A DNA stretch of 64,000 nucleotides, taken from contig NZ_CP014544.1 of NCBI RefSeq assembly GCF_001586255.1, positions 3,194,501 to 3,258,500 on the forward strand, written 5' to 3'. Shown here one piece after another: positions 11,519 to 29,251 of this stretch; position 1 is the stretch's first letter; each line of letters begins with the position of its first letter. The position numbers and the translations under genes are program-made. Source of the stretch: Zhongshania aliphaticivorans. Its GTDB lineage: Bacteria; Pseudomonadota; Gammaproteobacteria; Pseudomonadales; Spongiibacteraceae. The notes under the pieces were generated by a model. The model was not told the DNA's origin. It was given only the letters and a program-made list of their open reading frames with translations, and did no database searches.

Positions 11519-13108
11519 ATGGCCATCGCCCAAGATCATATCCAACAACGCGCGATCATGCGCGTATACAGCGCCTACCGTTTTGCGCTGGCTAGCGCCT
11601 TATTCGTGGCCTTAATGTTTGGCCCCGCCAAGTCGACCTTGGGCACCAGTGCGCCCCAGCTATTTGCGGGAGTCGCCTCGGCTTACGCTATTTTTGCGCT
11701 AAGCTTATTATTGCGCCACTACTTAATCAAAGGCCACTACACCCCCACCCAGCTGTTCTTTGAGTTTTTTATCGACATTGGCGCGATCATGTTCATGAGC
11801 TATTGCTCAGGTAGCACTGATTCCGGGCTGCCACTGCTGCTCATCGTGTCAATTAGCGCCGCCAGTATCACTTTACCCAGCCAACTCAGTTTAGCGATTG
11901 CCGCACTGGCAACCATCTCAGCGCTTAGTGAAGTCGCGGCCCACACCCTCTATGAGCGAGTTAGCACCCAACAGTTTATTGTCGCCGGCATTACCGGCAT
12001 GGCGTATTTCTCTGCCGCCATTGCCATCCGTTACCTCAGTGCGCGCATTGTCAAAACCCAGCAATTAGCAGAACGGCGGCGCACCGACATCGAAACGCTC
12101 TCGGCAATCAACCAACGAATTGTGCAGCGCATGCAAACTGGCATCATCGTGATGTCACGCACTGGGCAAATTAAGCTCATAAATGACGCTGCTCAAGAAT
12201 TATTAGATATTCGCCCAGCCAGTGGCGATCAAGATCAATATGCCCCCGCCGTACTCATTGAAATGGCCAAGAACGCAATTAATGATTCGCAAATTATCAG
12301 TGTGGGACCCCGCCGACTTGATCTACACGTAAATATGACTAACTTAGAGGCCCACAATCACAGTGATTGCCTGCTATACATTGAGAACATCAGCAAAATC
12401 ACCCAGCGGGCGCAAAACCTGAAACTGGCATCGCTGGGCCGTTTCACCGCCAGTATCGCCCATGAAATCCGCAACCCCCTCAGCGCCATCAGTCATGCCG
12501 CGCAACTGCTCGCCGAAAGCCCAAACCTCGACGACAGCGACACCCGTTTCGCCGAAATCATCCAAAACCATGCCATGAGAATGAATGATATTATTAAAAA
12601 CATTCTTGAGCTCTCAAGGGGCCGAACGCCGCAACCGGAGCGTTTCGCACTAGGCAACTGGCTGCAGACATTTAACACTGATTGGCGGCCAACCGAACAC
12701 ACCCAGTACAGCATTACTGTCGAAGTCCTCGGTGAGACAGACATTGTCAATGTCGACCGCAGCCAGCTCAACCAGATCGTTTCTAACATTGCCGACAACG
12801 CAGTTCGGCACGGCGCGGCAAAAGATGGACGCGCCGCGTTAATTTTTCGTTGCAGCACTTTAGCCCGCTCTGGCGCCGTTATTTTAGATATCATTGACAA
12901 TGGCGACGGCATTAAGCCTGAAGATGTAGATAAAATATTTGAGCCATTTTTCACCACCCAAGCCCAGGGCAATGGCTTAGGGCTCTATTTGTGCCGGGAG
13001 CTGTGTTTGGCCAACCAAATTCATATTTATTATCGGCGCACCGCAGATCAGCAAAGTTGTTTTCGCTTACAATTCTCCCACCCTGATCGCGGCACTCTGC
13101 CGGACTAA
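11519..13108 (+). CDS. pilS: Type IV pilus sensor histidine kinase PilS
   Basis: 529 residues. The first 175 or so contain several transmembrane helices, as in Pseudomonas PilS (six helices). A PAS-like region follows (about 200-295), then the HisKA motif with phospho-acceptor His315 in SIAHEIRNPLSA, and a C-terminal ATPase domain with N-box NIADNAVRHG and G-box GNGLGLYL. PilS senses pilin in the inner membrane and controls PilR. GGAA precedes the ATG, although spacing is loose. The response regulator gene follows after 42 bases, and the pilus genes it would control lie just beyond. Confidence 0.94.
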   Translation: MAIAQDHIQQRAIMRVYSAYRFALASALFVALMFGPAKSTLGTSAPQLFAGVASAYAIFALSLLLRHYLIKGHYTPTQLFFEFFIDIGAIMFMSYCSGSTDSGLPLLLIVSISAASITLPSQLSLAIAALATISALSEVAAHTLYERVSTQQFIVAGITGMAYFSAAIAIRYLSARIVKTQQLAERRRTDIETLSAINQRIVQRMQTGIIVMSRTGQIKLINDAAQELLDIRPASGDQDQYAPAVLIEMAKNAINDSQIISVGPRRLDLHVNMTNLEAHNHSDCLLYIENISKITQRAQNLKLASLGRFTASIAHEIRNPLSAISHAAQLLAESPNLDDSDTRFAEIIQNHAMRMNDIIKNILELSRGRTPQPERFALGNWLQTFNTDWRPTEHTQYSITVEVLGETDIVNVDRSQLNQIVSNIADNAVRHGAAKDGRAALIFRCSTLARSGAVILDIIDNGDGIKPEDVDKIFEPFFTTQAQGNGLGLYLCRELCLANQIHIYYRRTADQQSCFRLQFSHPDRGTLPD

Positions 13109-13150
13109 TTACCGTATTATTGAGAAAGTAATTTGAAAGAGCGAACGAAT

Positions 13151-14521
13151 ATGCAGCAGTCCGTACTCATTATTGACGACGAACCAGATATACGAGAATT
13201 ACTCGAGATCACGATCAGTCGTATGGGCTTACACACGATTGCGGTAGGCAATGTTCGCGATGCCATTCAGGCCCTGAGCCAAAATGAAAACATTAATCTC
13301 TGCTTAACCGACATTAAGCTCCCAGACGGCTCGGGGCTGGAAATTGTTCGTCACATTCAGCAAAACGCAATGTGTACTGCCGTGGCGGTACTCACCGCCT
13401 ACGGCAGTACCGAGCTGGCAGTAGAAGCCTTAAAAGCGGGTGCCTTCGACTTTATTAACAAGCCCGTCTCGGTTGAGCAGTTGCGCAGCCTAGTAAAAAC
13501 CGCTTTAAAATTAGACCGCCGCGAAACCCAAGTCGACGGCAGCAGCAATACCCGCTTGCTCGGCGAAACCCAAAGCATTGTCAATCTGCGGGAGCAAATT
13601 TTAAAACTTTCTCGAAGTCAGGCGCCGGTTTACATCAGCGGTGAATCTGGTAGTGGTAAAGAGGTAGTCGCCCGCCTCATTCACGCCAATGGGCCGCGCA
13701 GTGACGCGCCGTTTGTACCGGTAAACTGCGGCGCCATTCCGAGCGAGTTAGTTGAGAGCGAGTTTTTTGGCCACAGCAAAGGCAGCTTTACCGGCGCCTA
13801 CGATCACAAAGAGGGTTTGTTTGAAGCAGCCAACGGCGGCACGCTATTCCTCGACGAAGTCGCTGACCTACCGCTAAATATGCAGGTTAAATTATTACGC
13901 GCCATCCAAGAAAAAGCCGTGCGCCGCATTGGTTCTACCCAAGAAATCCCGGTTGATGTGCGCATCCTTAGCGCCACTCATAGAGACCTTGCCAAGGCAG
14001 TAGCCGCCGAGCACTTTCGCAGCGATTTGTTTTATCGTATTAATGTTATTGAAGTGCAAGTACCCAGCCTGCGGGATCGCGCCAGCGACATTCCGCTGCT
14101 GGCCAAATTCCTGCTAGAAAAAATTGGCCGCGAGTGGGGCGTCACACCGCCAACCCTAGACAAGTCGGCATTAGCGAGTTTGTGCGTATACGGCTTTCCT
14201 GGCAATGTTCGCGAATTAGAAAATATTATCGAGCGCGCCGCTACCCTTTGCGAAAACAATACCATTACCGCCAGCGACTTATCGCTGCCAAGTATTGCCC
14301 CACAAGCGCATAGCAATGCGTCCGCGCCCGATAAAGGCAGCCACTTTGCCGCCGCCAGCGGGCAACTCGAAGAGTATATTGCCGGTATTGAAAAAGAGAT
14401 CATTGCCGACGCGCTGGAAGCCAATCGCTGGAATAAAACCGAGTCCGCCAAAAACCTCGGGCTCACCTTCCGGCAATTTCGTTACAAGCTTAAAAAATAT
14501 CAGCTCGATGAGAAGGGCTAA
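13151..14521 (+). CDS. pilR: Sigma-54-dependent response regulator PilR
   Basis: 456 residues. The receiver domain has phospho-acceptor Asp54 (CLTDIKLPDG). The AAA+ domain has Walker A GESGSGKE at 164-171 and the sigma-54-contacting GSFTGA loop at 211-216. The C-terminus is a Fis-type helix-turn-helix (LGLTFRQFRYKLKK). PilR activates RpoN-dependent pilin promoters. I chose the ATG beginning MQQSVLIIDD, with GAG nine bases upstream; a TTG six codons earlier is possible. It forms an operon with pilS and is convergent with pilY1-A. Confidence 0.95.
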   Translation: MQQSVLIIDDEPDIRELLEITISRMGLHTIAVGNVRDAIQALSQNENINLCLTDIKLPDGSGLEIVRHIQQNAMCTAVAVLTAYGSTELAVEALKAGAFDFINKPVSVEQLRSLVKTALKLDRRETQVDGSSNTRLLGETQSIVNLREQILKLSRSQAPVYISGESGSGKEVVARLIHANGPRSDAPFVPVNCGAIPSELVESEFFGHSKGSFTGAYDHKEGLFEAANGGTLFLDEVADLPLNMQVKLLRAIQEKAVRRIGSTQEIPVDVRILSATHRDLAKAVAAEHFRSDLFYRINVIEVQVPSLRDRASDIPLLAKFLLEKIGREWGVTPPTLDKSALASLCVYGFPGNVRELENIIERAATLCENNTITASDLSLPSIAPQAHSNASAPDKGSHFAAASGQLEEYIAGIEKEIIADALEANRWNKTESAKNLGLTFRQFRYKLKKYQLDEKG

Positions 14522-14533
14522 AACCTCCTATTA

Positions 14534-14564
14534 GGAGCGGCAAGATATAGTTTCTTGCCGCTCC
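14534..14564. terminator. Hairpin between convergent pilR and pilY1-A
   Basis: GGAGCGGCAAG and CTTGCCGCTCC form a perfect 11-bp stem around a nine-base loop. It sits between two convergent stops and could serve both strands. No long T-run follows on either side, so termination efficiency is uncertain. Confidence 0.6.
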
Positions 14565-14573
14565 GGCAACTCA

Positions 14574-17500
14574 TTACTTATAAAAATAATACATGCGCTT
14601 GCGGCCGCTACTTATCACCTTACCGTTACTGGGTTTATAAATAGAATCGCCATCGCCACCCATAATAAAGAAGCGGATTTCGTCGTTCAAATTAACAAGA
14701 CCGGAGATCGGACTAGGCGGCAAACCGCCGCCACTGTACTCCGTACGAGTGCGGCTGCCAGTGAACAGATCAACTTTGTAAGCAAAGGCGCGACCTAATC
14801 CACTTTTGCAGCTAGTAGAATCAGTTCGGGTATCTGGCTGATTTGTCGCAAAATACACGGTACCCGCTTCGGTCAGCGGTGCGTTAACACCTTTTTCACC
14901 CACCGCCAAATCAAAGTAATAGCCTTTGTAGTTTGTATCGCGGCCGTCAAAGACATAGCGTTTAGTATTTGTACTAGAACAAGCAACAGCCGCATTATCT
15001 GTACCTGAGGCCTCGTAGCCGCCATTAACTGAATCAAAGCAATTGGCACTGACATCGGTTTGATTCAGTAAATTACTGTTGTAGATCGCAGTGGTACTAC
15101 CCGCCGACGAACCAGTATTGCGATCTATCAGCATATAAAAGCGGTTTTGCACGTTCTGCGCCGTACCCACGGTTGTTGAACTGGTGTACAAGGGGTGTTC
15201 ACGGTCACCGCTAACGGCAACTACCAAATCGTGATTACGGGTGGGAATGATATCCACGCCATATAAGAACTTGCGCTTGCCGTTACCCGCAGTGCCTAAT
15301 TCGGCAAATTTACTAATCGCAATTTCCGAGACAGGCACACTGTTTCCGGTAGCGGTATAGGAATCAGATTTATCTAAATCAATGCGCCAAATATTGCCGC
15401 CGACATCACTCGCATACAGCCGATCGGTATAGCCGTCACCGCGCCGATCGAGAAAGGTTATATCTGCCGCAAAGGCGCTAGTAAGGCCCGTATTAGCCAC
15501 ACACGTTCCCGCCACGCCCTCGGTAGTCAAGCTCGCGTAATGGCTGCTACCAATACCTGCACAGCTATACAGCGACGCCCAGATAATCTTACCGGTGATA
15601 CCGTCGAGAATAACCACTCCGCGCCCCATCGTGTCTGCTGCAACGACAGGATCGGCATCTTGTTCTGGCGAGTAACCTGCACCAAAAATCAATACCGGAC
15701 GATCGCGACCACCTATTTTCGTGACCTTGGGCTGCGACCATGTATAGCCAAGTTCATTAATAATCGTGTTATCGAGCTTCCACATTAACGACGGGGCAAA
15801 GGGGTCGGTCACATTCATGGCATACATAAATCGGCCGCCACGACGAGAGCTCAAATACAAATATTTATGACCCGAGGTTGCACTTGTGGCCCTATCGTCT
15901 TGGAAAAACGTGGTAGTACCATCAAAGAAATATTTACGTCGCTCCGCTGGTGAGCCTGACGGGGTATCGGGAAAGCGGATTGCCGGATCGTCACGAAATA
16001 AACGGGGAAATTGATCTAAAAAATCCTTAGCAACAAAACTCCACAGCTCGCCGCCAGGACGAACTGACACACCCGCACCATTGCTCATTACCGCCGTTTG
16101 ATTACCGTTAATTGCGCGGAAATGACCATCATTAGCACCGTAGTAAACCACCACGCCAGTACCACTACCGTAGTTAACAACGGCAGGTCTGGAGTGCAGA
16201 ACGTCGCCATGCACAGACCCGCGAATAGAAATGGGGCAATTGGAATCTCGGGAACCCTGCGGGCACGGGCCAGTCATGGCCTCATTACCAGCAATATCGT
16301 CGCCACGAACCCAGTTAATTAAATTTTCTGCCGTTAAGGTATCGCCACTAGTGCCACAAGTTACTGAAGCTCCCGACGTAAATACCCACGTCTCCAACCT
16401 TCCTGTGAAATTATCGCTGTCAACGTAGGTTCCACCACTCAACACCACTGAACCAGTGACACCAGCACTGTTGTACACTCCGGCTGTATTCCCTGTGATT
16501 TGGCAGTTATCTAAGGTTTTTTGAGCATTTGTTGTGCCTGATGATATGCCGTGGTCACTCTGATTAACCTTAATCAACTTACTTACTTTGGTAATGGGCT
16601 TGGCGGTAAACGTAAAATTTCCTTCAATCTTATTACTACCCGAAAACGCCAAGGTAAAGCTATTGGCACCGCTAGCAGTAAGACTACAGGGGCTTGAGCT
16701 GCAGCTTGCGCCACCTGGGATATCGCTATCGAGCAAAACCGCATCGTTGCTTGCATTGAAATCAAAGGCACTACCGCTGGTCATTACGATATTGGTTAAG
16801 CTGTATACACAACTTGACACACCCTTATCTTTAGTACATGAAACACTACCATTTACAGTACCTCGCGCACCTGCGGTAATTGAAGAAATACTATCTCTAC
16901 TCGACGCGGATAGCGTAGTTGTAAAATAAGCTGTTAAGGCAGAATTACTGGTATCGAAATTTACCAAACCATTCGCGCCGCAACTCCCTGTGGGGCATTT
17001 ATTGGTGTAAACCCGCCTCGCACCGCTATTTGTTAAATAATCTACCCGCAACATTTGTGCTGCGCCGCCTTTCTGTACTAAGTCGCCGTCTGGCGCATCA
17101 CGCGCACCGCCATCGCCTTCAGGGCTATTCTTCCAAAAGCCATCAGGTAGGGCTGGCCAGTTCGCTGAGTTACTTGGCGTGTTGGTCGTCCAAAAACTTA
17201 ATGCATCATCAACGAGACCGCCGGTTTCAGAGTTAACAATGGAATTTGAGCCAGTGGTAGAGTCATCGGCATCGGTCAATACAATAGAACCAGCGTCATC
17301 CACCCCAAACTGAAACTGTTTAACATTGCCAATCCAACGCGGCCCACCCGACGGGTCGGGGCGGAACATCGCAATATAAATCTGGTTCTCGTAAGTACCT
17401 TGCGTATTCGCACTCACCGGCAATGTCGCAGACGAAAAAACGCTGTTCACGTCTTGTACTTCGTTGAAAATTTCCAGTAAAACGCGGGTTAAAGCATCAC

Positions 17501-18473
17501 TTTCGGTGCTTTTTACAAGGTAGGCTTCACCGCCCCCCACTTTCGCCATGTCTTGGTAAAAAGCGATCTCGTCGGCGACTTGATTAACAAAACTTTCGCC
17601 GTATACCGCAATGCTATAAGTGGTAACGTTACGGTCGATCTGAGTGCTGTCATCGACGTCTACATAACGCATGAAACGAGTCCACTCGTCGCCCCAGTAG
17701 CTGTCAGCGGGCGTTAAATTAAAGCCGTTGCCATTTCGAATTGTGGCAAACTCATTGTATTTACTTGACCCAGCGCTATAACCAAAGGCCGAGGTCAACT
17801 GTTCTTTCAATTTAGTGCCGGGGTTCCCATTGCCATCTTTTACGCTAGCATTTGCCGCCACTGCATTGCCGATATAAATCATCACCGCATTACTGCAGTT
17901 CGTTGAGGTTTCTTTTATTGCGCTATAGTCAGTGCCAGAACAAGAGGTGGGAAGCCCGTTGAGCGCAGCCCAGGTTTCGGCAACGGCATCACCTAATTGA
18001 CTCTGATTCCCCGGCAGGGTCTGTTTAGTAAGCCCCTTTAAGGTAGAGATCATCGAGTCGATACCAGTCGTGGTGAGCAGTGTTGGCGGAATGAGTAAGT
18101 TGCCACAACCGCCTGGGCTGTCGGAGAACGTCATTACACCTACTTTCAACGTGCCCACCAGATCTGGCGAATTCCGCACGGTTTGCAGCGCATTAACTAT
18201 TGCACACTGCTCCATGCCCCCCACCGTATCGCCCCCTAAAGAAGGCTCAACCGTGGTGGCTAGACCATTTGCGCCGATATACCGGCAGCCATGTACGGCG
18301 TTTGCGCTAACATTCGCGCTGGTATGCCAGGTCAACATTACTGTAGCAGGATCTACCGAGGCACTGCTGCCGACAAACAAGTCAATGTCTTCAGCCATTA
18401 ATGTTGCCGAAGCTAGCGCGCAGCCGAGTGCGGCCAGGGTATTTTTACACCATTTTATCGGCTTTATATTCAT
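14574..18473 (-). CDS. pilY1: PilY1-type tip adhesin A, with degenerate VWA motif
   Basis: 1299 residues with a signal peptide (cleavage near A-M-A, residue 27). The N-terminal half aligns with the VWA region of PilY1, but the metal-site D-x-S-x-S is replaced by W-H-T-S-A near residues 49-53, and the later T-D-G loop reads I-G-N near 201-203. Residues about 515-705 form a Ser/Thr-rich insert with several cysteines. From about 720 onward it resembles the PilY1 C-terminal propeller (VYYGANDGHF at 776-785), with a Ca-loop-like D-R-R-G-D-G-Y-T-D at 1009-1017. It ends operon A. PilY1 proteins sit at the type IV pilus tip and support assembly, adhesion and surface sensing; this copy probably lost VWA metal binding. 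Confidence 0.88.
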   Translation of the reverse strand: MNIKPIKWCKNTLAALGCALASATLMAEDIDLFVGSSASVDPATVMLTWHTSANVSANAVHGCRYIGANGLATTVEPSLGGDTVGGMEQCAIVNALQTVRNSPDLVGTLKVGVMTFSDSPGGCGNLLIPPTLLTTTGIDSMISTLKGLTKQTLPGNQSQLGDAVAETWAALNGLPTSCSGTDYSAIKETSTNCSNAVMIYIGNAVAANASVKDGNGNPGTKLKEQLTSAFGYSAGSSKYNEFATIRNGNGFNLTPADSYWGDEWTRFMRYVDVDDSTQIDRNVTTYSIAVYGESFVNQVADEIAFYQDMAKVGGGEAYLVKSTESDALTRVLLEIFNEVQDVNSVFSSATLPVSANTQGTYENQIYIAMFRPDPSGGPRWIGNVKQFQFGVDDAGSIVLTDADDSTTGSNSIVNSETGGLVDDALSFWTTNTPSNSANWPALPDGFWKNSPEGDGGARDAPDGDLVQKGGAAQMLRVDYLTNSGARRVYTNKCPTGSCGANGLVNFDTSNSALTAYFTTTLSASSRDSISSITAGARGTVNGSVSCTKDKGVSSCVYSLTNIVMTSGSAFDFNASNDAVLLDSDIPGGASCSSSPCSLTASGANSFTLAFSGSNKIEGNFTFTAKPITKVSKLIKVNQSDHGISSGTTNAQKTLDNCQITGNTAGVYNSAGVTGSVVLSGGTYVDSDNFTGRLETWVFTSGASVTCGTSGDTLTAENLINWVRGDDIAGNEAMTGPCPQGSRDSNCPISIRGSVHGDVLHSRPAVVNYGSGTGVVVYYGANDGHFRAINGNQTAVMSNGAGVSVRPGGELWSFVAKDFLDQFPRLFRDDPAIRFPDTPSGSPAERRKYFFDGTTTFFQDDRATSATSGHKYLYLSSRRGGRFMYAMNVTDPFAPSLMWKLDNTIINELGYTWSQPKVTKIGGRDRPVLIFGAGYSPEQDADPVVAADTMGRGVVILDGITGKIIWASLYSCAGIGSSHYASLTTEGVAGTCVANTGLTSAFAADITFLDRRGDGYTDRLYASDVGGNIWRIDLDKSDSYTATGNSVPVSEIAISKFAELGTAGNGKRKFLYGVDIIPTRNHDLVVAVSGDREHPLYTSSTTVGTAQNVQNRFYMLIDRNTGSSAGSTTAIYNSNLLNQTDVSANCFDSVNGGYEASGTDNAAVACSSTNTKRYVFDGRDTNYKGYYFDLAVGEKGVNAPLTEAGTVYFATNQPDTRTDSTSCKSGLGRAFAYKVDLFTGSRTRTEYSGGGLPPSPISGLVNLNDEIRFFIMGGDGDSIYKPSNGKVISSGRKRMYYFYK

Positions 18474-18513
18474 GATAAATCAACTCCAAAACGCGCTGAA
18501 TGTGGCTTGTCGC

Positions 18514-19077
18514 TTAACGGCATGTTGTGCCCTCGCCCGCTCGTAAATAGACGCCCTGATGCATTTCTAATGCGGCACCCGTCACCGAGTCATTTACTCT
18601 AGCAAGCGTGTCCCAGGTCATTTTTACGCAACCTGACTTATTTATTGCTGCGGTGCCGGTGGTATCACTAAAAATATTGCCGCCGACCACTTGCACTGAC
18701 TTAAAGCAATCACGATCTTTGACATTGCGCTCATTCAATTCCGAGCGCATTACCGGTGCCGACCGTAAACAGGTTGGCGGCGGCACTGTGCCCGCCATAT
18801 CGGCAAGTCCGTCACCATTAAAATCGATATCAATAACACTTGGCCCAACGGGTAAAGGTAGTGCGAAATTATTTGGATTGCTGACGTAGGTTTCCAGCGC
18901 GTGGCGAGCAGCTAATTTTGCCTCCATGCGATATTGCTGATTACCGGCAATTTTGAAATTGATATTACTGCCACCAATCATGCTCACGACGATCACGCTG
19001 AATACCCCGAGCATTATCAGCACCACGATCAGCACGACACCTCGCTGGGCTTTATCGCTAGCGATTGTGTTATTCAC
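18514..19077 (-). CDS. pilX: Minor pilin PilX (operon A)
   Basis: 187 residues from the chosen GTG. A type III signal Q-R-G precedes the hydrophobic N-terminal helix VVLIVVLIMLGVF. As in other PilX proteins, the usual Glu at mature position 5 is missing. PilX is one of the minor pilins that prime pilus assembly with PilV, PilW, FimU and PilY1. GGGGGAG lies nine bases upstream of the GTG; a second GTG two codons earlier is possible. It overlaps the end of pilW-A by eight bases and lies 40 bases before pilY1-A. Confidence 0.85.
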   Translation of the reverse strand: MNNTIASDKAQRGVVLIVVLIMLGVFSVIVVSMIGGSNINFKIAGNQQYRMEAKLAARHALETYVSNPNNFALPLPVGPSVIDIDFNGDGLADMAGTVPPPTCLRSAPVMRSELNERNVKDRDCFKSVQVVGGNIFSDTTGTAAINKSGCVKMTWDTLARVNDSVTGAALEMHQGVYLRAGEGTTCR

Positions 19078-20119
19078 TTTCACGCACTCCCCCAACATTG
19101 GGCACACTAATCACCGAGGAGTAGACTTGGCGCTTAAAGCCATCACTAAAGGGCCCGCTGCGGCTGCTTCGTCCCATATCGTAGGTTTTAGCGGCATCGC
19201 CGCCACTGGCGGTTGCCCCCCGCACCAGCATGCTCACTCTTACTGAAACAACATTTGCCCAATTCTTCCAATCGTCCACCTGCCAGGTGCCTGCGCACGC
19301 CGTCGGCGCAGTGTCTACGCGAGGGTCGCTGACGTAACAATCTGGACTACCGTTTAAATCAAGGTCCATACCGTAGGAAAAATGAATATCTTCTACTCCA
19401 GCCACCAACGCCTTGGTGCTCAGAACGCCGCCGCTGAATTCGTGCATTTTTAACGTCGGCTTTCCATCACCGTTACCACCGCCACTACAGTCTTCACAGG
19501 GACTAATAAAATAACTGCGGACCACATAGGGCCAGGCTACCGCTAAGGTATCGCAGTCTTTAATTTGTAAGCTTAAATCGTTCTTGGCAGTAGACAACAC
19601 AAAGGGCAAGCCCGCGTCACAATCTGCAATTTGTAAATAAGGAATATTGGTGCTGGTAATCGTGCTGACATCAATTTGCGTGGGCTCGACACGATGCACA
19701 ACCAAGGCTTCGGAATCGCTCACCGCTTCAGTTGCGAAGCAGCTTGGCAAGGTGCTCGTTGCTGGGTAGCCCACCAGGGGCGCAGGCATCTGTAACGGCG
19801 ACGCCGCAAAGCCAAGATCCGATATATTTGTGGCATTAGCGCAAGGGTCTGGCAGCGTATACGTTGCCACGCCCACCCCAGGATGATACATGCCGTAAAA
19901 CCCGGCCAAAGCGATATCCTCGCTCAATAACTGAAGGGCATAACGACCATTTTCAATTTGATCTGAGGTATTGGCTAAGGCTGAGCGTGTTGAACTCACA
20001 GACGCCATAAGACTAATAATGCCCAGCAACATGAAGGCGCCTAAGCCAAGCGAAATCATGATTTCGACTAAGGACATACCCTGCTGTTTAGCCAGTAGCC
20101 TGGCGCGTTTCGCCATCAT
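19070..20119 (-). CDS. pilW: Minor pilin PilW (operon A)
   Basis: 349 residues. The leader ends in K-Q-Q-G followed by MSLVEIMISLG, with Glu at mature position 5 and the long hydrophobic helix of class III/IV pilin-like proteins. The length and the C-terminal pattern match PilW, the large minor pilin. I chose the ATG that overlaps the pilV-A stop (ATGA), with AGGGTGG about six bases upstream; an in-frame GTG lies three codons earlier. It is in operon A between pilV and pilX. Confidence 0.87.
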   Translation of the reverse strand: MMAKRARLLAKQQGMSLVEIMISLGLGAFMLLGIISLMASVSSTRSALANTSDQIENGRYALQLLSEDIALAGFYGMYHPGVGVATYTLPDPCANATNISDLGFAASPLQMPAPLVGYPATSTLPSCFATEAVSDSEALVVHRVEPTQIDVSTITSTNIPYLQIADCDAGLPFVLSTAKNDLSLQIKDCDTLAVAWPYVVRSYFISPCEDCSGGGNGDGKPTLKMHEFSGGVLSTKALVAGVEDIHFSYGMDLDLNGSPDCYVSDPRVDTAPTACAGTWQVDDWKNWANVVSVRVSMLVRGATASGGDAAKTYDMGRSSRSGPFSDGFKRQVYSSVISVPNVGGVRESE

Positions 20120-20691
20120 GACAGCCACCCTATACGCACAATAGAACTCACTATTCGCCGCTGCTTTTCATCACCAAAAGCATTAAGGCCACAGGTATTA
20201 TCGGCGGGCGGGGCCACCGTTTTATTCATGCCCTGCCACGCGACGGTGATGCGGTAGGTACGCTCGGCGGCACTCACTTGCACAATGCAACCTCTGGCGC
20301 CGACCATTGCACCACTGTTATTACTGCCCGACTGCTCAGACACTCCATTCAGGGCATTATTCCATGCCGTAAGATCCGCGGTGACCATGGCTTTTTCTGT
20401 CGCAGAGCCACTGGTGCAGGCGGTAAACGTCGACACCCCGTAGCCTAACGTGGCCCCCGTGCTGCCGTAGGAATAGCACTCGACCACCCCGCGATTCGCG
20501 TTCATGCGGTCGGTCATATCTTGCAGTAAGTTCAGTGCCTGTAAGCGCTGATAGGCCTCGACCTCTTGCTGGACGGTACGCACCATTAAACCCGCGGCGC
20601 CCATTACCCCCACCAACAGCACCACCAGCGCCACCAGCACCTCGATAAGCGTAAAACCACGCGCCTTACGCCCTGCCGCTACGCTATTCAT
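20116..20691 (-). CDS. pilV: Minor pilin PilV (operon A)
   Basis: 191 residues. The prepilin leader K-A-R-G is followed by FTLIEVLVALVVLLVG, the pattern of PilV/GspI minor pilins. Cysteines at the C-terminal half probably form a disulfide. The ATG overlaps the last base of the fimU-A stop (TAATG) and its own stop overlaps pilW-A, which indicates translational coupling along the operon. Confidence 0.88.
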   Translation of the reverse strand: MNSVAAGRKARGFTLIEVLVALVVLLVGVMGAAGLMVRTVQQEVEAYQRLQALNLLQDMTDRMNANRGVVECYSYGSTGATLGYGVSTFTACTSGSATEKAMVTADLTAWNNALNGVSEQSGSNNSGAMVGARGCIVQVSAAERTYRITVAWQGMNKTVAPPADNTCGLNAFGDEKQRRIVSSIVRIGWLS

Positions 20692-21146
20692 TAACAGCTC
20701 CCCGATTCACTGCTGGGCTTACCGCTTAAGGAAATCGACACACATTTGCTGCGACTCGCGGTTCCCGAGCTGGGTGCTAAGGTAAATTCGGCGGCGACAC
20801 TGGCGCGACCGTTGCTGCCATAAATAACGCTTGTTACCCCACTGCTCACCGTAATTCCGCCAACACCATCGACCGTCCGCAATACCGCAGTACCGGCGCT
20901 AACTGTCCAGCCATTGGACCAGCCACCAGCCGCTTGCGCTACCGTTACGTCGGTATTTCGGGTTACCGCTTCACTACGCGCTAAATTTATTGCACCAATT
21001 AAATCGTTGCTGGCGCTGCGTACCCGCTGATTCTCCATAAAAACATTAAAGGACGGCGCGGCGATCGATGCCAATATCGCAACAATTGCCAAGGTGACCA
21101 TTAGCTCAAGCAGTGTATAACCGCGCTTTAAATTCAATTCCAGCAT
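20691..21146 (-). CDS. fimU: GspH/FimT-type minor pilin (FimU position, operon A)
   Basis: 151 residues. Leader L-K-R-G, then YTLLELMVTLAIVAILASIA, then the GspH/FimT signature around ASNDLIGAINLARSEAVTRN (residues about 45-65). Two cysteines lie in the last 20 residues. By position before pilV it corresponds to FimU; FimT cannot be excluded on sequence alone. It overlaps the end of pilE-A by 13 bases. Confidence 0.85.
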   Translation of the reverse strand: MLELNLKRGYTLLELMVTLAIVAILASIAAPSFNVFMENQRVRSASNDLIGAINLARSEAVTRNTDVTVAQAAGGWSNGWTVSAGTAVLRTVDGVGGITVSSGVTSVIYGSNGRASVAAEFTLAPSSGTASRSKCVSISLSGKPSSESGSC

Positions 21147-21553
21147 CGGCTTGCTCCGCTGGCGTGACCTTTCTCACCCTGACTATTTAAGGTCAGCGTG
21201 CCGCAGCTATCGCCGCTTTGTGTGCCGCTAGATTTAGGTGTCGCCGTGATGGTGTAACTCGGCGGCGCGGTTGTGTTATCGCCCGCCGTCGTAACGGTGT
21301 AATTGGTAGCAACTTCGCTTGGCGGGCTTGCGCCTAGCGCCGTCATATCTGCAGCGTAGGCGCGGGCATCTAGAAAGCGGCGCTCTTGCAAATTCGCTAC
21401 TTCAAGGAGATAACTCGTTGCCGCCGAACGATTCGCGCGCTCAACATAATCGCGATACGAAGGCATAGCGATCATAGAAATGATCGCAATTATCGCGACG
21501 GTAATCATTAGCTCAATCAAAGTGAAGCCGCGTTGCCGGGCAGAAACATTCAT
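21134..21553 (-). CDS. pilE: Type IV pilin PilE-like (operon A)
   Basis: 139 residues. Leader R-Q-R-G is followed by FTLIELMITVAIIAIISMIA, then the PSYRDYVERANRSAA segment of PilE-type minor pilins, and a cysteine pair (about 117 and 137) that would close the C-terminal D-region. It is the first gene of operon A, while its counterpart ends operon B. The ribosome site is weak: AGGA lies about 13 bases upstream of the ATG. A possible sigma-54 site lies about 36 bases upstream. Confidence 0.87.
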   Translation of the reverse strand: MNVSARQRGFTLIELMITVAIIAIISMIAMPSYRDYVERANRSAATSYLLEVANLQERRFLDARAYAADMTALGASPPSEVATNYTVTTAGDNTTAPPSYTITATPKSSGTQSGDSCGTLTLNSQGEKGHASGASRCWN

Positions 21554-21711: not shown

Positions 21712-22149
21712 TTAGCGCCGCCAGCAATCGGCAACCGTTTTACTAGAACCAGATGGCTTATCGAGCAAGGCCAATTGCCCAGTTTCATTTAACGTAAAGT
21801 TACCGCAGGCGTCGCCCACCATGGGGCCGCTGCGGGTTGCCTTAAGGGTAAAGGTATTATTTGCGGCAGCCGTTGCCGCTATAGTGTAAAACGCCGTGCC
21901 ACTGTCGGGCACCCTGCTAACAAAAACAGCGGGAAGCGCGGTGCCCCCAGAGGCTGTTGTATAGCGGCCATTAGCCGAGTAATAGCGCTCTAGGGCCTGG
22001 GCACTGCTAAAGAGCGCATTAGTTGCTTCGTTACGCCGCGACTTAGCAATTTGCTCTTGATAACTGGGATAGGCAATTGAAGCCAGTATCCCAATTATCG
22101 CAACAGTGATCATCAACTCTACTAAAGTAAAACCCAAATTCCGTTTCAC
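21712..22149 (-). CDS. pilE: Type IV pilin PilE-like (operon B)
   Basis: 145 residues. Leader K-R-N-L-G is followed by FTLVELMITVAIIGILASIA and PSYQEQIAKSRRNEA, with a C-terminal cysteine pair. The start is decided by the ribosome site: AGGAG lies seven bases upstream of a GTG giving VKRNLGF, a standard short leader. An ATG five codons upstream overlaps the pilY1-B stop (ATGA) but would place AGGAG inside the coding sequence. It is the last gene of operon B, as pilE is in Pseudomonas aeruginosa. Confidence 0.87.
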   Translation of the reverse strand: MKRNLGFTLVELMITVAIIGILASIAYPSYQEQIAKSRRNEATNALFSSAQALERYYSANGRYTTASGGTALPAVFVSRVPDSGTAFYTIAATAAANNTFTLKATRSGPMVGDACGNFTLNETGQLALLDKPSGSSKTVADCWRR

Positions 22150-22160
22150 ACATATACTCC

Positions 22161-25100
22161 TCATTGAAACTGCCGCCATGACTGTCTACCTAATAGCTCA
22201 CCTTCACCGGCAGACTCAGTGACCACACCGATTGTCCCGCTGCTGCCAGAGGTATATTTATATTCAAGGTCGCCAGCGCCAATAATGCCCGGCGTTTTTA
22301 TCATTTCGTCACTGCCACGGCCGCTGATGGGGTAGTACTTACCTTCAAACAAGATTTGATCTAGCTCATCAACCTTGCCATCGGCATTTACATCTAAGGC
22401 TGGGCTGCTCAAGCGCCCACCATTGTTCGCATCTAGTTCCATTAACCAGCTCCGGCCACCGTAACCACAGGCATCGCTATTCGGAATAATGCTAGTAAAA
22501 ATAATACGGCCATTTCGCAGTATTGGCTTTGATACCGCGCGTTCACCATTTGCGACCCCAGATGGCGCCAATAGCCGCAAATGCCAACCGTATACCGGTG
22601 TGCTAGTTGCACTATTATTGCTAACCAAGCGCACCGGGAAGGCACTACTGCTGCCGTCAGTAAGCGTCCCGGTATTTTCGTAAACCACGGTTTGGGTAAC
22701 TAAATCGCCACGATTAAGCACTCTAGCGCCGACATCTCTTATGCCGTAAAAATCTTGTATTTGTGGACTGCTGCCCACGACGGCATCGGCGTATTCAAAG
22801 TATTTACCCGTTCCAAAATACACCATGTAACCGCTTTCTTTGTGAGATCCAACCGTGGGTCGCACCGTAATTGGCTGCGCAAGGCCATTATTATCCACGG
22901 CCTGAAAGAGTGGTTTAGGAACACTGCCGTCTTTAAACGCAACATCCCATGTTGCAATTGAATTACCAGTAAAATCAAACTTCCACAGATTACCTTTTAA
23001 ATCGCCTGCATAAACATAGTCAGTTATGCGGTCGCTATCAACATCGACGGGGACCGGTGTCCCCAGCCCATTACCGACGCCACTAACACCGGTATCGATT
23101 GCCTTTAATACGGCGCCTGTCGCCAGATCTACGACAAATAATTTCACATTGTCACCAGAGGCGTAGCCATTACCAAAAATGGCAACCCATTTATTTTCAG
23201 CGTCCAAACGCGCAATTACTGGCTCGCTCATGGCAACACCAAGCTTGTCGGTGTCTAACAACGATGTCGCTTTCTCCCACAGGAAATTGCTCTTGGTTAA
23301 CGAGGCCGGATCGGTAACATCAATGGCAAACACCGACTTGCCACCCGCACCCATGGACCCAATCAATACGGTTCGCCACTGACCGTTAATATAGGCATCG
23401 CTTGCCCGCGGCGAACCGTCTACTGTGTAGCTGTGCACATAAGCAGGGTCGGTCAGCGCCGCTAATTTCGGAAAGCTTGCCACCGGCAAGTAGGCGAATT
23501 TTTCTTTGCCCGTCAGCGCGTCAAAGCCGTGGAGCATGCCATCGTTAGCACCAACATAAATCATTGATGTGCGAGACTTCTTCGCATTCAAAAAGGTTTT
23601 ATAACTACTGCCTTCAGTGCCGCTCAAAACCCCAAAACCATAGTCCGCTAAATTGTCGACAAAATAGGGATCTGAATTAATGATATCGCCCAATGGAGTG
23701 GAGCGCTGACGCAAGGTAATGCCTTCCTTGCTCTTGTCCCCACGCAGCCACGACAGCCGATCTAATGCGGTCGTTGGCGAGCCACCGGCAAGCAACGCCG
23801 TCTGTAAACTTAAGGAAAGCGCATTATAATTACTTCCCGTAAAGCTAATAGCCGACGTCACTAGAGTACCCGGCGCGCCCAAGCCAACAACAATATTACG
23901 AGTGGCGGCACTGGCAATACTGTTGTTATTGGAATCCCAGGCGACCCCTTTCAAACTGCCGTCAGAATTTAAATTGTAGGCGACAATTCGACCAGCCCAA
24001 TCCAAACTATTAAAACTCGCCTGATACACCAACGTGCCCGAATCCAAGCGTGTTGAGTTAGAGGCTATTGACGACGCCGACGATTTACTTTGGCTAGTAA
24101 TGGTGTCCAGTACACCAGACAAGTCGTTGGCAAATTTAGCAGGCTCTGCCGCGCTAAAGAATCCGCCGCGACTGTTCACTCCAGCATGTAATAAATCATC
24201 AATTTTATGGGCGTCGGCACTGGTTGGATTTGGCCAATCGATATTGGCGCCACTCTTTATTGCGGCAAATGCCGTCGCAGGATCAATCGTACCGGCCACA
24301 CCCAAGCCGACACCAAAGGTAACCATATGCTGCCAGAAGGCCGGATTATCTTTCGTCTCCGCAAGCGTGTTGGGCATATCGTTGCGTAAATCATTTTTCC
24401 AGTAATACATTGCCACATCAGCAAGGGTGTCGCTGCGACTGTCTTTAAACGGCGAAACCGCTTTGTACTGATAGCTTTGCCCCGCAGACCCGGTATGGGT
24501 CGGGTTATCTGTACCGTCGTTATTATTACCGCCAGCGCCAGACACGGAACTTCCAGACCAATAACCGTCCGTCATTAATACCGTGTAATTGCGGCGACAA
24601 GACAACTGCGTACTGGTGTCATTCGTGCCGGGGGTAGCACCCCAAGGCCCTTTATTATCGGTACGTTTATAGTAAGTGCCGACAGCATCAATAGCACGCC
24701 GCAAAGGCGTACCTGCACTGGGAATATCTCGACCATATAGTGCGTCATAAAACGCATCTCGATCACTGCCAGCAAACTTCCGCACGCCTTTAACAACAAC
24801 CTCAGAGTTCACGCCATCTACGCTAGTACTGGACTGATTTATACTACCAAAGCCAATTCGTAAACCGCTGCTTTGGCTAACAAAGGCAAAGCCGGAGCCC
24901 GCTCTCGCCATTGACACTCGCGAACGATAATAGGTATACCAGTTAGCGAAGTTTTGAATTTCCTCAGCGTAAGTACACACCCCCAATGAGGCCGCCGCGC
25001 AGTCGTCACGCTTTTCCCGGCCGTGACCAGTGAAGGTTTGACCCGATCTAATTTGCTTCCGCTCGTAACTCGCCCAATTCCAATAACTGCCGCTGCCCTT

Positions 25101-25979
25101 GTACCAAAAATAGGTTGCCGGCCAAAATGTTTTAATACTATTGGTACTGGTGCAGCTATCATCACTCTTGCAACTAAACCAATAATTACTATTGTAGTTG
25201 CTATTATCTACCGTCAAATTTCGACAAAACGCGGCATTTGGTAACAGCGTCGTGCGCATTGGATTATGCAGTGCGCACACCGGATTTGCATTTGGGTAGC
25301 TACTATTATTCGATTTTATCCATGGGTAATAGGTGGAGGATGGATTGTAATAAAGACTATTAATTTGCGGTGAACGCGAGCGCGCATTATAAGGATCGTT
25401 ATCGTCAACGGTAGGCACATAATTTGAATAATCACTGCCACCGTAAATACCATTTGCACGAGGAAATATATAGCGACTACTCCCGGCGATGATATCATCA
25501 GGCATTAATTCAAACTGCATAGACCCAGAGTCATCTAACACATACATTACATTGGGCGGTATAGATTGAGTCAAAAACAGTGGCGCTTGTGCAATACCCT
25601 CTAAGCTTGTTGACACGGGATCGGTGCACCCCAACTTTTTACCTTCAACAGTTACCGTCGCAATGCATGTATAAGAATTACTATTACTATTCAAGACTGT
25701 CAATATATTGCCGCTAGTACGAAACGCTGAACTTGGGCAGCTACTCGCATTACCGCTTTTTAAAACATAACTTACGACTCGGTCAATACTGGAAAGCGTC
25801 GAGTAAACATAACTGTCGTTACTATTATTCTTCCCAATATCAACAATAGAGGTTTCTGTCACGGTGCAAGACACTTGCGCTGACGCGGGTAGCGAAAAGC
25901 CCGCAGCCATCACAAACACGACCGCAAGCAAGCCTATTTTTTTGCCTACGCTTGCTGCATATTTATTTTGCTGTTGCAT
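22161..25979 (-). CDS. pilY1: PilY1-type tip adhesin B, canonical
   Basis: 1272 residues with a signal peptide (cleavage near S-A-Q, residue 35). A short cysteine-bearing N-terminal domain precedes a VWA domain with an intact metal site: D149-D-S-G-S in YVLDDSGSM, Thr424 and Asp470 in LMTDGYW. The C-terminal propeller begins near 745 with the conserved LRGDKSKEG and LGDIINSDP, and has a full Ca-binding loop D-V-D-S-D-R-I-T-D at 979-987. The ATG chosen has AGGGGA eight bases upstream; the frame is open for 62 more codons inside pilX-B. Expected at the pilus tip, where it links assembly, retraction and adhesion. Confidence 0.93.
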   Translation of the reverse strand: MQQQNKYAASVGKKIGLLAVVFVMAAGFSLPASAQVSCTVTETSIVDIGKNNSNDSYVYSTLSSIDRVVSYVLKSGNASSCPSSAFRTSGNILTVLNSNSNSYTCIATVTVEGKKLGCTDPVSTSLEGIAQAPLFLTQSIPPNVMYVLDDSGSMQFELMPDDIIAGSSRYIFPRANGIYGGSDYSNYVPTVDDNDPYNARSRSPQINSLYYNPSSTYYPWIKSNNSSYPNANPVCALHNPMRTTLLPNAAFCRNLTVDNSNYNSNYWFSCKSDDSCTSTNSIKTFWPATYFWYKGSGSYWNWASYERKQIRSGQTFTGHGREKRDDCAAASLGVCTYAEEIQNFANWYTYYRSRVSMARAGSGFAFVSQSSGLRIGFGSINQSSTSVDGVNSEVVVKGVRKFAGSDRDAFYDALYGRDIPSAGTPLRRAIDAVGTYYKRTDNKGPWGATPGTNDTSTQLSCRRNYTVLMTDGYWSGSSVSGAGGNNNDGTDNPTHTGSAGQSYQYKAVSPFKDSRSDTLADVAMYYWKNDLRNDMPNTLAETKDNPAFWQHMVTFGVGLGVAGTIDPATAFAAIKSGANIDWPNPTSADAHKIDDLLHAGVNSRGGFFSAAEPAKFANDLSGVLDTITSQSKSSASSIASNSTRLDSGTLVYQASFNSLDWAGRIVAYNLNSDGSLKGVAWDSNNNSIASAATRNIVVGLGAPGTLVTSAISFTGSNYNALSLSLQTALLAGGSPTTALDRLSWLRGDKSKEGITLRQRSTPLGDIINSDPYFVDNLADYGFGVLSGTEGSSYKTFLNAKKSRTSMIYVGANDGMLHGFDALTGKEKFAYLPVASFPKLAALTDPAYVHSYTVDGSPRASDAYINGQWRTVLIGSMGAGGKSVFAIDVTDPASLTKSNFLWEKATSLLDTDKLGVAMSEPVIARLDAENKWVAIFGNGYASGDNVKLFVVDLATGAVLKAIDTGVSGVGNGLGTPVPVDVDSDRITDYVYAGDLKGNLWKFDFTGNSIATWDVAFKDGSVPKPLFQAVDNNGLAQPITVRPTVGSHKESGYMVYFGTGKYFEYADAVVGSSPQIQDFYGIRDVGARVLNRGDLVTQTVVYENTGTLTDGSSSAFPVRLVSNNSATSTPVYGWHLRLLAPSGVANGERAVSKPILRNGRIIFTSIIPNSDACGYGGRSWLMELDANNGGRLSSPALDVNADGKVDELDQILFEGKYYPISGRGSDEMIKTPGIIGAGDLEYKYTSGSSGTIGVVTESAGEGELLGRQSWRQFQ

Positions 25980-26037
25980 GAGCTTTCCCCTACGCATATT
26001 GCGCGCTGTGATCCTTGTGTAAAGCCGACAATGGCTC

Positions 26038-26586
26038 TTACAATTCTTGTCGTTTATACGTGGTAGCGAGAACCACCATACTGCGATCACTATACCCATA
26101 ACCACGGGCAATGATTCGATAAAAACCATCGCGAGAAACCGGGCGATCGGAATCCAGCACATCATTTTTATTACCGGCTCGGTTCAATTGCTGAATAATA
26201 TATTCCGGCTGCTTAGCGGCATCAGGTATTTTATTTTGCAGGCTTAACCAGCCCTTAGAATCATAATCTGACCATGCTGGATATTTGCAGGCTTCGCGAG
26301 TATCCGCGGGATCTGGACAAGATTGATAAAAGCCGTCTGTACCGTCAAAACCTGGCAGCACGCCACTGCGCAGCACCCCTTCGGCAGTGCGCAAAGCGGC
26401 TTCGGCAGACTGAAAGGCAATGGTATTTTCCTTCATATTACCCGCCATACGCTCCTGCAAGGTTGCAGTTTGCATAGAGGCGATGCTGATAATGGTCAAA
26501 ATCAGCATAAATACCAAGCTCACAATCAAGGCCGCGCCGCGCTGCGAGCGGTATGGTCGCCAAGTACGTCGAGCTAGGCCATTCAT
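26038..26586 (-). CDS. pilX: Minor pilin PilX (operon B)
   Basis: 182 residues. Leader S-Q-R-G is followed by AALIVSLVFMLILTII, then the PilX-type stretch QTATLQERMAGNMKEN (about 42-57). Glu5 of the mature protein is absent, as usual for PilX. The ATG overlaps the pilW-B stop (ATGA), and pilY1-B starts 58 bases downstream of its stop. Confidence 0.9.
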   Translation of the reverse strand: MNGLARRTWRPYRSQRGAALIVSLVFMLILTIISIASMQTATLQERMAGNMKENTIAFQSAEAALRTAEGVLRSGVLPGFDGTDGFYQSCPDPADTREACKYPAWSDYDSKGWLSLQNKIPDAAKQPEYIIQQLNRAGNKNDVLDSDRPVSRDGFYRIIARGYGYSDRSMVVLATTYKRQEL

Positions 26587-27623
26587 TGCAACCGATTCCT
26601 GATAGTAAATACATTGGTAAATACCTGACGCAGACGGCCATCGTTATTGGCGACCAAATCGCCAGAGGCATCGCTGAGTTGCTGCGCATCAGCTGCGCCC
26701 GTTCTACCCACCACATTGTCTTGCGAGCCATACATAATTAGCTCAATGCGCACGCTCAATACCGTTGCCCAATCGGCTACCTCTGCTGCAGTCTGATATA
26801 CATCGACCGCGCGATCAGCATTGGTGTCTACACCATAACTCAGCTGCATATTTTCGATACCTTCCACCAACTCGATCGGGGCGGTCGCCACGCCACCAGA
26901 TGTTAACGTTAATTGCTGGAAATACAGCGCATTAATCGGGTTGCCCGCCGAGCTTTTTCGGCCAGTATCGGCAATAAAAAAGTCTATTACTTGGAAGCCA
27001 AACACTTCGGCTTCGCCCGTGTAAATTTTACTCAGCTTATTATCTGAGTTACTGCCATTGGCATGAGCCAAGGTTGTTTGCCCCTCGCCTTTCTTTTTTG
27101 GCGTATTCGTAATCCGAAACATATCGCCATTTAAGCAGTCGGTGACCATGACAAAATCTTCTTTAACAAACCCAACGGAGTTGTCTTCAATTTTGACGTT
27201 CGCATTATCAGGCGACAAATTGCCAGTGAGCGTAATGAATTCGTCCGAGGCCCGCTTTATTGTCACTCTATCGGTACCTACCACCGCTGACATAGCATCA
27301 CTCGCACCCACATTATCCACGCCAACAAGCGCCGTACCTGGCGAGAAAATAGCAAGACTTGTCGGAAGAGCAATGTTATTGAAGCCTGCGGCGCCAATCG
27401 AGCTGCAGCCCATATAGCCTGCCATCCGAATTTCGCGGGACAAGAAGCGCATAGCAAACCGTGCGTTCTCTTGAATTTGCGCCATTGAATCCAGCATTTT
27501 AGAGCTGGTACTGGTCGCCAAAAATACCTGTATAACCGCCGTGCTGAGCAAAATGCCCAATGTCACTGCAATCATTAATTCAACTAACCCGAAGCCGAGC
27601 TGTTTAACACGCTTTAATCTCAT
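26583..27623 (-). CDS. pilW: Minor pilin PilW (operon B)
   Basis: 346 residues. Leader V-K-Q-L-G precedes FGLVELMIAVTLGILLS, with Glu5 present, and the RFAMRFLSREIRMAGYMGC segment (about 51-69) typical of PilW. GGAG lies eight bases upstream of the ATG, only two bases after the pilV-B stop. It is clearly diverged from PilW-A by eye, so the two operons are not a recent duplication. Confidence 0.9.
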   Translation of the reverse strand: MRLKRVKQLGFGLVELMIAVTLGILLSTAVIQVFLATSTSSKMLDSMAQIQENARFAMRFLSREIRMAGYMGCSSIGAAGFNNIALPTSLAIFSPGTALVGVDNVGASDAMSAVVGTDRVTIKRASDEFITLTGNLSPDNANVKIEDNSVGFVKEDFVMVTDCLNGDMFRITNTPKKKGEGQTTLAHANGSNSDNKLSKIYTGEAEVFGFQVIDFFIADTGRKSSAGNPINALYFQQLTLTSGGVATAPIELVEGIENMQLSYGVDTNADRAVDVYQTAAEVADWATVLSVRIELIMYGSQDNVVGRTGAADAQQLSDASGDLVANNDGRLRQVFTNVFTIRNRLQ

Positions 27624-27625
27624 GC

Positions 27626-28066
27626 TCAGAACTCCGTCACAAATACAAAGCTCTGAATATTACCGCCACCGGCTAATCGTGATTTACTCAAACGTCCTTC
27701 ATCCCATTGCACAGTGACTGTAATGACATTGCCATCGCGACTTATTGCACCATCACCTTCCGGCAAACGCAGAGCTAACTCAGCCAACCATTCTTGCAAG
27801 TCTATGTCGACAATGGTGTCGCCCTCTGGCGCATCATCGTCAACGGCTAAGTCATAGCGCCCTGCCAGCGCAAGCGTTCTATTTGCTCGCATTCGATCTG
27901 TTATGTCGTTAGACAGGAATACTGCGGCAGACCGGATATTGGCCACTTGATTAAACTTGACCGAATTTAATTGCAATGCAGAGGCCCCTAGCACCCCTGT
28001 TGCCGTAATAAGCACTGCAATTAACACCTCAATTAAGGAAACGCCGCGCTGCGTATAACGACTCAT
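27626..28066 (-). CDS. pilV: Minor pilin PilV (operon B)
   Basis: 146 residues. Leader T-Q-R-G precedes VSLIEVLIAVLITATGVLG, followed by a PilV-like segment with DRMRANR. The ATG overlaps the fimU-B stop (ATGA); an in-frame TTG two codons upstream is a weaker candidate. It is shorter than PilV-A (191 residues) and lacks its cysteine-rich C-terminus. Confidence 0.88.
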   Translation of the reverse strand: MSRYTQRGVSLIEVLIAVLITATGVLGASALQLNSVKFNQVANIRSAAVFLSNDITDRMRANRTLALAGRYDLAVDDDAPEGDTIVDIDLQEWLAELALRLPEGDGAISRDGNVITVTVQWDEGRLSKSRLAGGGNIQSFVFVTEF

Positions 28067-28575
28067 GGGCAAACCCGATCCGTAATCGTGACCTGACCAC
28101 TCGCGGTGATATTGATATCGCGATCATGACTGCATTTTTCCGGCTCACTGCGATAGCTTAATACCACCGCTTTTGAATCCTGGATAAAGCCTTGATTATC
28201 AAAGGTCACACTGTTCACCGTGGAAGTCCCAATTTTAGCCGTGATTTTGGCGCTGGTTTTTATTGGCGGCGTTTCCTTGAACGCCTCACCGGCGTCAAAG
28301 CTGCCGTTGTCATTCAGGTCAACCCAGGTTTGCCAACCTTTAGCCCAGTCACCACCGTTAGCGGTTAAAATAACCGGGCGTGCCCTAACTACCGCTTCAG
28401 AACGCGCCGCCACAAGTGCCTTTAACATCGACTGGACATCCGCTCGCTCGCGAGAGTTACTAATAAAGGTGCTAAAATTGGGAATGGCCACCGTCGCGAG
28501 CACAGCAACCACCGCAACAGTCACCATTAGCTCGATAAGGGTATAGCCTGCCACCAATGCATTCCGACGCAACAT
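28063..28575 (-). CDS. fimU: GspH/FimU-type minor pilin (operon B)
   Basis: 170 residues from the chosen ATG. Leader A-L-V-A-G precedes YTLIELMVTVAVVAVLATVA, and the GspH domain signature MLKALVAARSEAVVRARPV follows. The last two residues before the stop are Cys-Pro, with another Cys near 149. AAGGGA lies about six bases upstream of the chosen ATG; another ATG ten codons earlier (28605) is possible but has no good ribosome site. First gene of operon B, matching the Pseudomonas fimU-pilVWXY1-pilE order. Confidence 0.88.
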   Translation of the reverse strand: MLRRNALVAGYTLIELMVTVAVVAVLATVAIPNFSTFISNSRERADVQSMLKALVAARSEAVVRARPVILTANGGDWAKGWQTWVDLNDNGSFDAGEAFKETPPIKTSAKITAKIGTSTVNSVTFDNQGFIQDSKAVVLSYRSEPEKCSHDRDINITASGQVTITDRVCP

Positions 28576-28744
28576 CCCAGATCCCTTGATATCCTTGACT
28601 TTCATTTAATCTTACGTAAAGTTATTTGCTACGGGCTTGACTCCAAATAGGATCAAGAATGAACAATATCCCGTGAAATATAGTTCCTAATATACTTTCT
28701 CGCCAATAACATGCAGTTTAAGCCAGTATGGAAAGGAGTCCATA

Positions 28745-29251
28745 ATGGAAAACCGAGGGGTCACCCTGATCGAACTGATTAGCACCTTGGCAATCAGTGC
28801 TATTTTAGGCCTAATTGCGGTTCCGGCCATGAGTCATTTTATTCAACAGCAGCAGCTGCGGAGCGCCGCCTACAATCTTTATCATTTATTGACAAACGCC
28901 CGCGCCACGGCCATTTCACAGCAGCAGCGGGTCAGTGTTTGGAATCAAAATGGTGACTGGCGCAGCGGCGTCGAACTGTTTGTCGACAGCAACGACAACG
29001 GTCAACGAGAGAATACTGAGACTAGCCTGTATACCGCAACAGACCACGAAAATATTTATATTAGTGGCAACCGCTGGGTAGCTAACTACGTTTCTTACCT
29101 GCCCAATGGCCGCGCAGCCACTGCCAGTGGCGCGTTCCAAGCTGGCACCATAAGTCTGTGCAAGTCTGGTTTAAATGACAAATATCAGCTGGTTATCAGC
29201 ATTGGTGGGCGGCTGCGACTGCAAAAATCCCCAAGTAACAGCTGCCCATAG
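28745..29251 (+). CDS. fimT: GspH/FimT-type minor pilin, divergent
   Basis: 168 residues. The very short leader M-E-N-R-G precedes VTLIELISTLAISAILGLIA, and the FimT/GspH signature is at about 40-60 (LLTNARATAISQQQRVSVW). Cys at about 140 and 167 may pair. AAGGAG lies seven bases upstream of the ATG. It is transcribed away from operon B across a 139-base spacer and convergent with ispH. A separate fimT next to fimU is also found in Pseudomonas; its role there is not essential. Confidence 0.85.
   Translation: MENRGVTLIELISTLAISAILGLIAVPAMSHFIQQQQLRSAAYNLYHLLTNARATAISQQQRVSVWNQNGDWRSGVELFVDSNDNGQRENTETSLYTATDHENIYISGNRWVANYVSYLPNGRAATASGAFQAGTISLCKSGLNDKYQLVISIGGRLRLQKSPSNSCP

Follow-up and report, generated by a model that had tools for sequence, protein, structure and literature searches.

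The window analysed here, a stretch of 64,000 nucleotides from contig NZ_CP014544.1 of Zhongshania aliphaticivorans, carries two minor-pilin/PilY1 cassettes arranged in tandem on the minus strand, cassette A at 14574-21553 and cassette B at 21712-28605, flanked by a histidine kinase/NtrC-type regulator pair (11519-14521) and by ispH-fkpB-lspA-ileS. The regulator pair resembles pilS-pilR, a name presumed from the look of the sequences and their position. The A cassette consists of FimT/FimU-like (20691-21146), PilV-like (20116-20691), PilW-like (19070-20128) and PilX-like (18514-19107) minor pilin genes, followed by the gene for PilY1-A (14574-18473), an open reading frame of 1,299 aa; a PilE-like minor pilin gene (21134-21553) lies upstream, at the edge of the cassette. 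The PilX-like product was recognised from its open reading frame and N-terminal pilin segment, and it covaries with A. The B cassette contains genes for FimT-, PilV-, PilW- and PilX-like minor pilins (26038-28605), PilY1-B (22161-26165) and PilE (21712-22179), all likewise on the minus strand. The likely start of PilY1-B is M63 of the open frame, at 25979, and B residues are numbered from it. Between the B cassette and ispH lies a lone FimT-like pilin gene in the opposite orientation (28745-29251), which is kept there in genomes without A. The third PilY1 of the genome (L035, 2278-5811) is an open frame of 1,178 aa in which the DDSGSM, GTP and TDG motifs are intact, and a pilE-like gene adjoins it.

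Discussions of PilY1 VWA domains treat them as metal-dependent adhesins and mechanosensors. PilY1-B is a canonical family member (PF05567, E 7e-59). For PilY1-A, standalone Pfam and NCBIfam scans reported no domain; a genome-level search with the PF05567 profile gave 39.5 bits with its neighbours in frame, over a cut-off of 28.1, and because the standalone Pfam scan listed nothing, A is regarded as a divergent member of PF05567. It also matches the PilY1 beta-propeller structure 3HX6 by sequence (E 2.9e-9) and is found in the minor-pilin context of PilY1/PilC, with FimT/U-PilV-PilW-PilX-PilE genes at 18514-21553 in a gene order identical to that of the related loci L039-L050.

Since the standalone scans gave nothing, the evidence for the fold of A comes from AlphaFold2 modelling and comparison with the PDB. 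The model of residues 27-375, built from 91 natural sequences, has a mean pLDDT of 87.8 and a pTM of 0.86, and its order of strands and helices is that of a VWA domain, assigned to residues 27-345 (17439-18395). The solved structures that match it are VWA domains, including BatB (3ibs, Z 18.2), a TFIIH subunit (Z 18.2) and Streptococcus sanguinis PilB (7ba2, Z 17.9), and the top Foldseek matches are PilB (E 1.6e-8). The VWA fold presumed for A in the original prediction, a Rossmann-like fold, was thus recovered by structure prediction. The VWA domain of B (24021-25595) carries large insertions, and because of these the mean pLDDT of its AlphaFold2 model is low (60, with higher values in the core strands and helices; pTM 0.71), so that the core alone was used; it too has the VWA fold, with Z scores of up to 17.4 against solved VWA domains.

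The positions of the MIDAS ligands in A were assigned in two ways. In the profile-profile alignment from hhalign, CSNAVMIYIGNAV of A stands opposite CRRNYTVLMTDGY of B, which places the T-D-G position at G202-N203-A204 (17862-17870), in agreement with the orthologue and subfamily alignments; in the same alignment Thr424 of B pairs with Ser158 of A (18000-18002). The hhalign alignment stopped short of the N-terminal motif, and the D-x-S-x-S register was therefore placed through family intermediates. The first motif reads PNVLxxLDN[STA]AN in relatives of A and VWDNAANN in Azotobacter chroococcum, so that W49 of A comes ahead of the Asp position, and the counterpart of D-x-S-x-S is H50-T51-S52-A53-N54 (18312-18326). 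In the models, W49 is the last residue of strand 1 in A, and in B this strand stops at the residue preceding the MIDAS Asp. By these alignments and strand ends, from which the pocket geometry of A is derived, the readings W-H-T-S-A and I-G-N given for A in the original prediction are each shifted by one residue. For B, the D149-D-S151-G-S153 motif (25521-25535) and Thr424 (24708-24710) are intact as had been proposed; the T-D-G Asp is intact as well, although counted from M63 it is residue 471 (24567-24569) rather than 470.

All five MIDAS ligands are kept in B and in the third PilY1 of the genome. In the window copy of A, the VWA region contains neither DxSxS nor TDG anywhere. Ser2 (Ser52) is retained, and where the MIDAS Thr would be the profile alignment places Ser158, a probable conservative replacement that keeps a hydroxyl; Asp1 is replaced by His50, Ser3 by Asn54 and Asp5 by Asn203, leaving no acid at either Asp position. 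The model and the alignments together show a predicted VWA fold in A from which both MIDAS carboxylates are absent and in which Ser3 has become Asn54.

These replacements are conserved. Among 13 orthologues, N54, N203, G202 and A204 are found in 13/13, position 158 is Ser in 12 and Thr in one, and position 50 is His in 12 and Glu in one. PilY1-A is under purifying selection: for the L012/L015 pair dN is 0.048 against a dS of 1.0, and in the VWA domain pN is 0.06-0.36 against a pS of 0.75-0.84. With pocket residues fixed across the 13 orthologues of a gene that selection maintains, the pattern is not due to chance. Five VWA cysteines are invariant in 13/13 orthologues. Two further ideas were considered and rejected, namely that A is a pseudogene or frameshift artefact, given 13 open orthologues and strong purifying selection, and that the stretch around H50 is unusually conserved, given that 41% of 21-residue segments of the VWA domain have as many invariant columns as residues 46-66.

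To date the loss, 91 distinct VWA domains from Beta- and Gammaproteobacteria were aligned, comprising relatives of A (80 of which came from a genome scan), genus orthologues and order-level matches. At the T-D-G Asp position none of them has Asp, 75 have Asn, and the rest have Leu, Gly, Ala or Phe; at the Ser3 position there are 59 Asn, 23 Ala and five Ser. The alignment thus shows that Asp5 is lost throughout the sampled subfamily, and Ser3 throughout nearly all of it. The Asp1 position differs, being Asp in 78/78 sequences outside Spongiibacteraceae and, within this family, His in 12/13 and Glu in 1/13. The protein tree unites the 13 sequences from Spongiibacteraceae in a single group (SH-aLRT 100), the nearest outgroup, A. 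chroococcum, keeps Asp, and the character is explained by two changes. The substitution pattern and the tree therefore indicate that the canonical MIDAS was absent from the subfamily first and that the Asp1-to-His replacement was a later lineage step; they place this replacement, the sole new step in Spongiibacteraceae, as one fixed on the family stem. Among B orthologues of the genus, a simple pattern search recovered D-x-S-x-S and TDG in all, and the GTP motif in all but one. A class-wide scan, thinly drawn and run with a strict threshold, returned no further A-type protein beyond the genome of the window, which is no evidence of absence. The contrast originally drawn between an A copy without the metal site and a B copy with it therefore stands in that A has no canonical MIDAS and that this state is kept in orthologues, but the loss is not private to A. 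It is real, kept by selection, mostly old and common to a widespread subfamily, and thus represents a lineage variant of a kind already known.

The effect on force or calcium-dependent surface sensing expected in the original prediction is conjectural. The structurally established calcium site of PilY1 is in the beta-propeller and not in the MIDAS (PMC13190605). The propeller loop that binds Ca2+ in Pseudomonas aeruginosa PilY1 is intact in B, where it reads DVDSDRITD (23019-23045). Its equivalent in A, D1009-R-R1011-G-D-G-Y-T-D1017 (15423-15449), follows D-x-R-x-D-x-x-x-D, with Arg rather than Asp/Asn at position 3, and departs from the PilY1 pattern DxDxDxxxD with an acid or amide at positions 1, 3, 5 and 9. 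Most A orthologues have D-x-[DN]-x-D-G-x-x-D, position 3 being Asp or Asn in 11/13; Arg at this position occurs only in A and in its closest relative, L006, among the 13, and the loop of L014 has Glu at position 9. At the level of sequence, A and L006 thus differ from the canonical pattern at each of the two metal sites known in PilY1.

Within the genus, B is present in 18/18 genomes and A in 12/18. In five A-less genomes (L193, L194, L195, L196 and L198) the pilR-like gene directly adjoins pilE of the B cassette, leaving a clean empty site, which indicates that A can be inserted or lost as a unit. Comparison with Zhongshania antarctica (L041) gave a DNA identity of 95-100% through the pilR-like gene, a drop to about 50-60% between about 14.5 kb and 20.4 kb, and a return to 90-97% by about 21.3 kb. 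In the interval 14500-21200 the A cassette (FimT, PilV, PilW, PilX and PilY1-A) shares 46-70% identity with its L041 counterpart, and the genes flanking it, those for the histidine kinase, the regulator, the PilE proteins and PilY1-B, are 93-99% identical; the PilE-like protein at the edge of the A cassette is not divergent. At the protein level PilY1-B is 97% identical to that of L041, while the whole FimT-PilV-PilW-PilX-PilY1 block differs. This sharp mosaic suggests that the whole pilus-tip cassette was replaced. PilY1-A is located in an accessory fimT-pilV-pilW-pilX-pilY1 cassette between the pilR-like gene and the core B cassette. A. chroococcum (L047) has an A-type cassette next to ispH-fkpB-lspA-ileS, and searching that genome with PF05567 detected the A-type protein as its sole PilY1.

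Taken together, these data make it probable that PilY1-A is a selected type IV pilus tip protein with a VWA fold but no working MIDAS, acting as an alternative metal-free adhesin beside the metal-dependent B. A most likely joins its own minor pilins in an alternative tip complex. It would cap a subset of the pili as an alternative tip adhesin and hold its target by other loops or by a polar pocket free of metal, without using the MIDAS, while B would supply the canonical metal-dependent tip function. The gene content points to such a division of labour between A and B, and the specialised roles envisaged for the two copies in the original prediction are plausible, with A as an accessory, separately evolving tip cassette and B as the core one.

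Two other explanations, both unlikely, leave some ion or ligand binding at the former MIDAS. In the first, the pocket of A has been rebuilt, and H50 together with H61, C63 or nearby Asn and Ser residues serves as a binding site for a specific ligand or a transition metal. H50 (12/13) and H61 (13/13) do co-occur in Spongiibacteraceae, the corresponding residues of the sister A. chroococcum being Asp and Glu, and C63, N54 and N203 are invariant; however, position 50 is Glu in L006, C63 is also found in outgroups without the histidines and may be part of a disulphide, and the stretch 46-66 is no more conserved than other stretches of the VWA domain. It is similarly improbable that in Spongiibacteraceae the pocket was rebuilt around H50 and H61 as a new ligand or transition-metal site, giving an adhesin independent of Mg2+/Ca2+ whose cassette, swapped between strains as a unit, would change surface specificity. 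In the second explanation, which has an equally small chance of being correct, the VWA domain of A keeps weak MIDAS-like ion binding through Ser52, Asn54, Ser158, Asn203 and water. Asn is able to coordinate metal, and A keeps Ser2 and, probably, a hydroxyl where the MIDAS Thr would be; A is nevertheless left without any carboxylate, and in PilB the loss of one Asp abolishes binding (PMC8179133). Least probable of all is that the VWA domain of A is a decaying relic and that the protein is retained solely for the sake of its beta-propeller and for pilus priming. The degenerate MIDAS and the Arg at position 3 of the propeller loop in A and L006 would fit such decay, but the VWA and propeller regions are alike in conservation (mean 0.72 vs 0.71), pN in the VWA domain is far below pS, its five cysteines are invariant and its fold is predicted with high confidence.

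The Zhongshania pair, a metal-competent core copy next to a metal-less accessory copy, would make it possible to ask which pilus functions need metal, and the cassette pattern suggests that exchange of pilus tips takes place in whole units. Neither the DN[STA]AN...N subfamily, to which A belongs, nor the His step in Spongiibacteraceae was described in the open papers searched.

Among characterised systems, A is comparable to S. sanguinis PilB (7b7p; D319A mutant 7ba2), a VWA-bearing minor pilin of a type IV pilus that is among its best structural matches. In PilB, Mg2+ is held by Ser, Ser, Thr and Asp ligands, and the D319A mutation of the TDG Asp abolished Mg/Mn binding and stopped twitching, with piliation unaffected and a VWA fold that deviated by no more than 0.45 A (PMC8179133). 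Unlike wild-type PilB, which binds Mg/Mn, A resembles the metal-dead D319A mutant at TDG, with Asn in place of Asp; by analogy, A would not be expected to hold a MIDAS metal. Like PilY1 of P. aeruginosa, A combines a VWA domain with a PilY1 beta-propeller (3HX6 match) and is encoded with fimU/pilVWXE minor pilins; the P. aeruginosa protein has the MIDAS 55-DDSGS-59, whereas A lacks the MIDAS carboxylates and its propeller is divergent. The evidence for force sensing in P. aeruginosa relates to cysteines of the VWA domain (PMC8806160, in the summary given by PMC13190605).

The coexistence of intact and degenerate PilY1 paralogues in one genome also has precedents. In Variovorax paradoxus EPS, one of the proteins Varpa_5900, Varpa_4912 and Varpa_3518 has a nearly intact VWA site and two lack it, and the authors of the study proposed that the N- and C-terminal functions of PilY1 are separated (PMC3283707). 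Members of the A subfamily are present in other Variovorax strains; the sampled proteins keep Asp1 and have DN[SA]AA with TLA or TFA, whereas A has H-x-S-x-N and GNA. Xylella fastidiosa has three PilY1 proteins with differing phenotypes (PMC9956873). As in the PilY1 clades of myxobacteria, several PilY1 proteins per genome are encoded in separate minor-pilin clusters and the presence of the MIDAS is variable (PMC13190605). In Myxococcota, however, its absence is scattered across clades (PMC13190605), whereas in the A subfamily the loss marks the whole subfamily.
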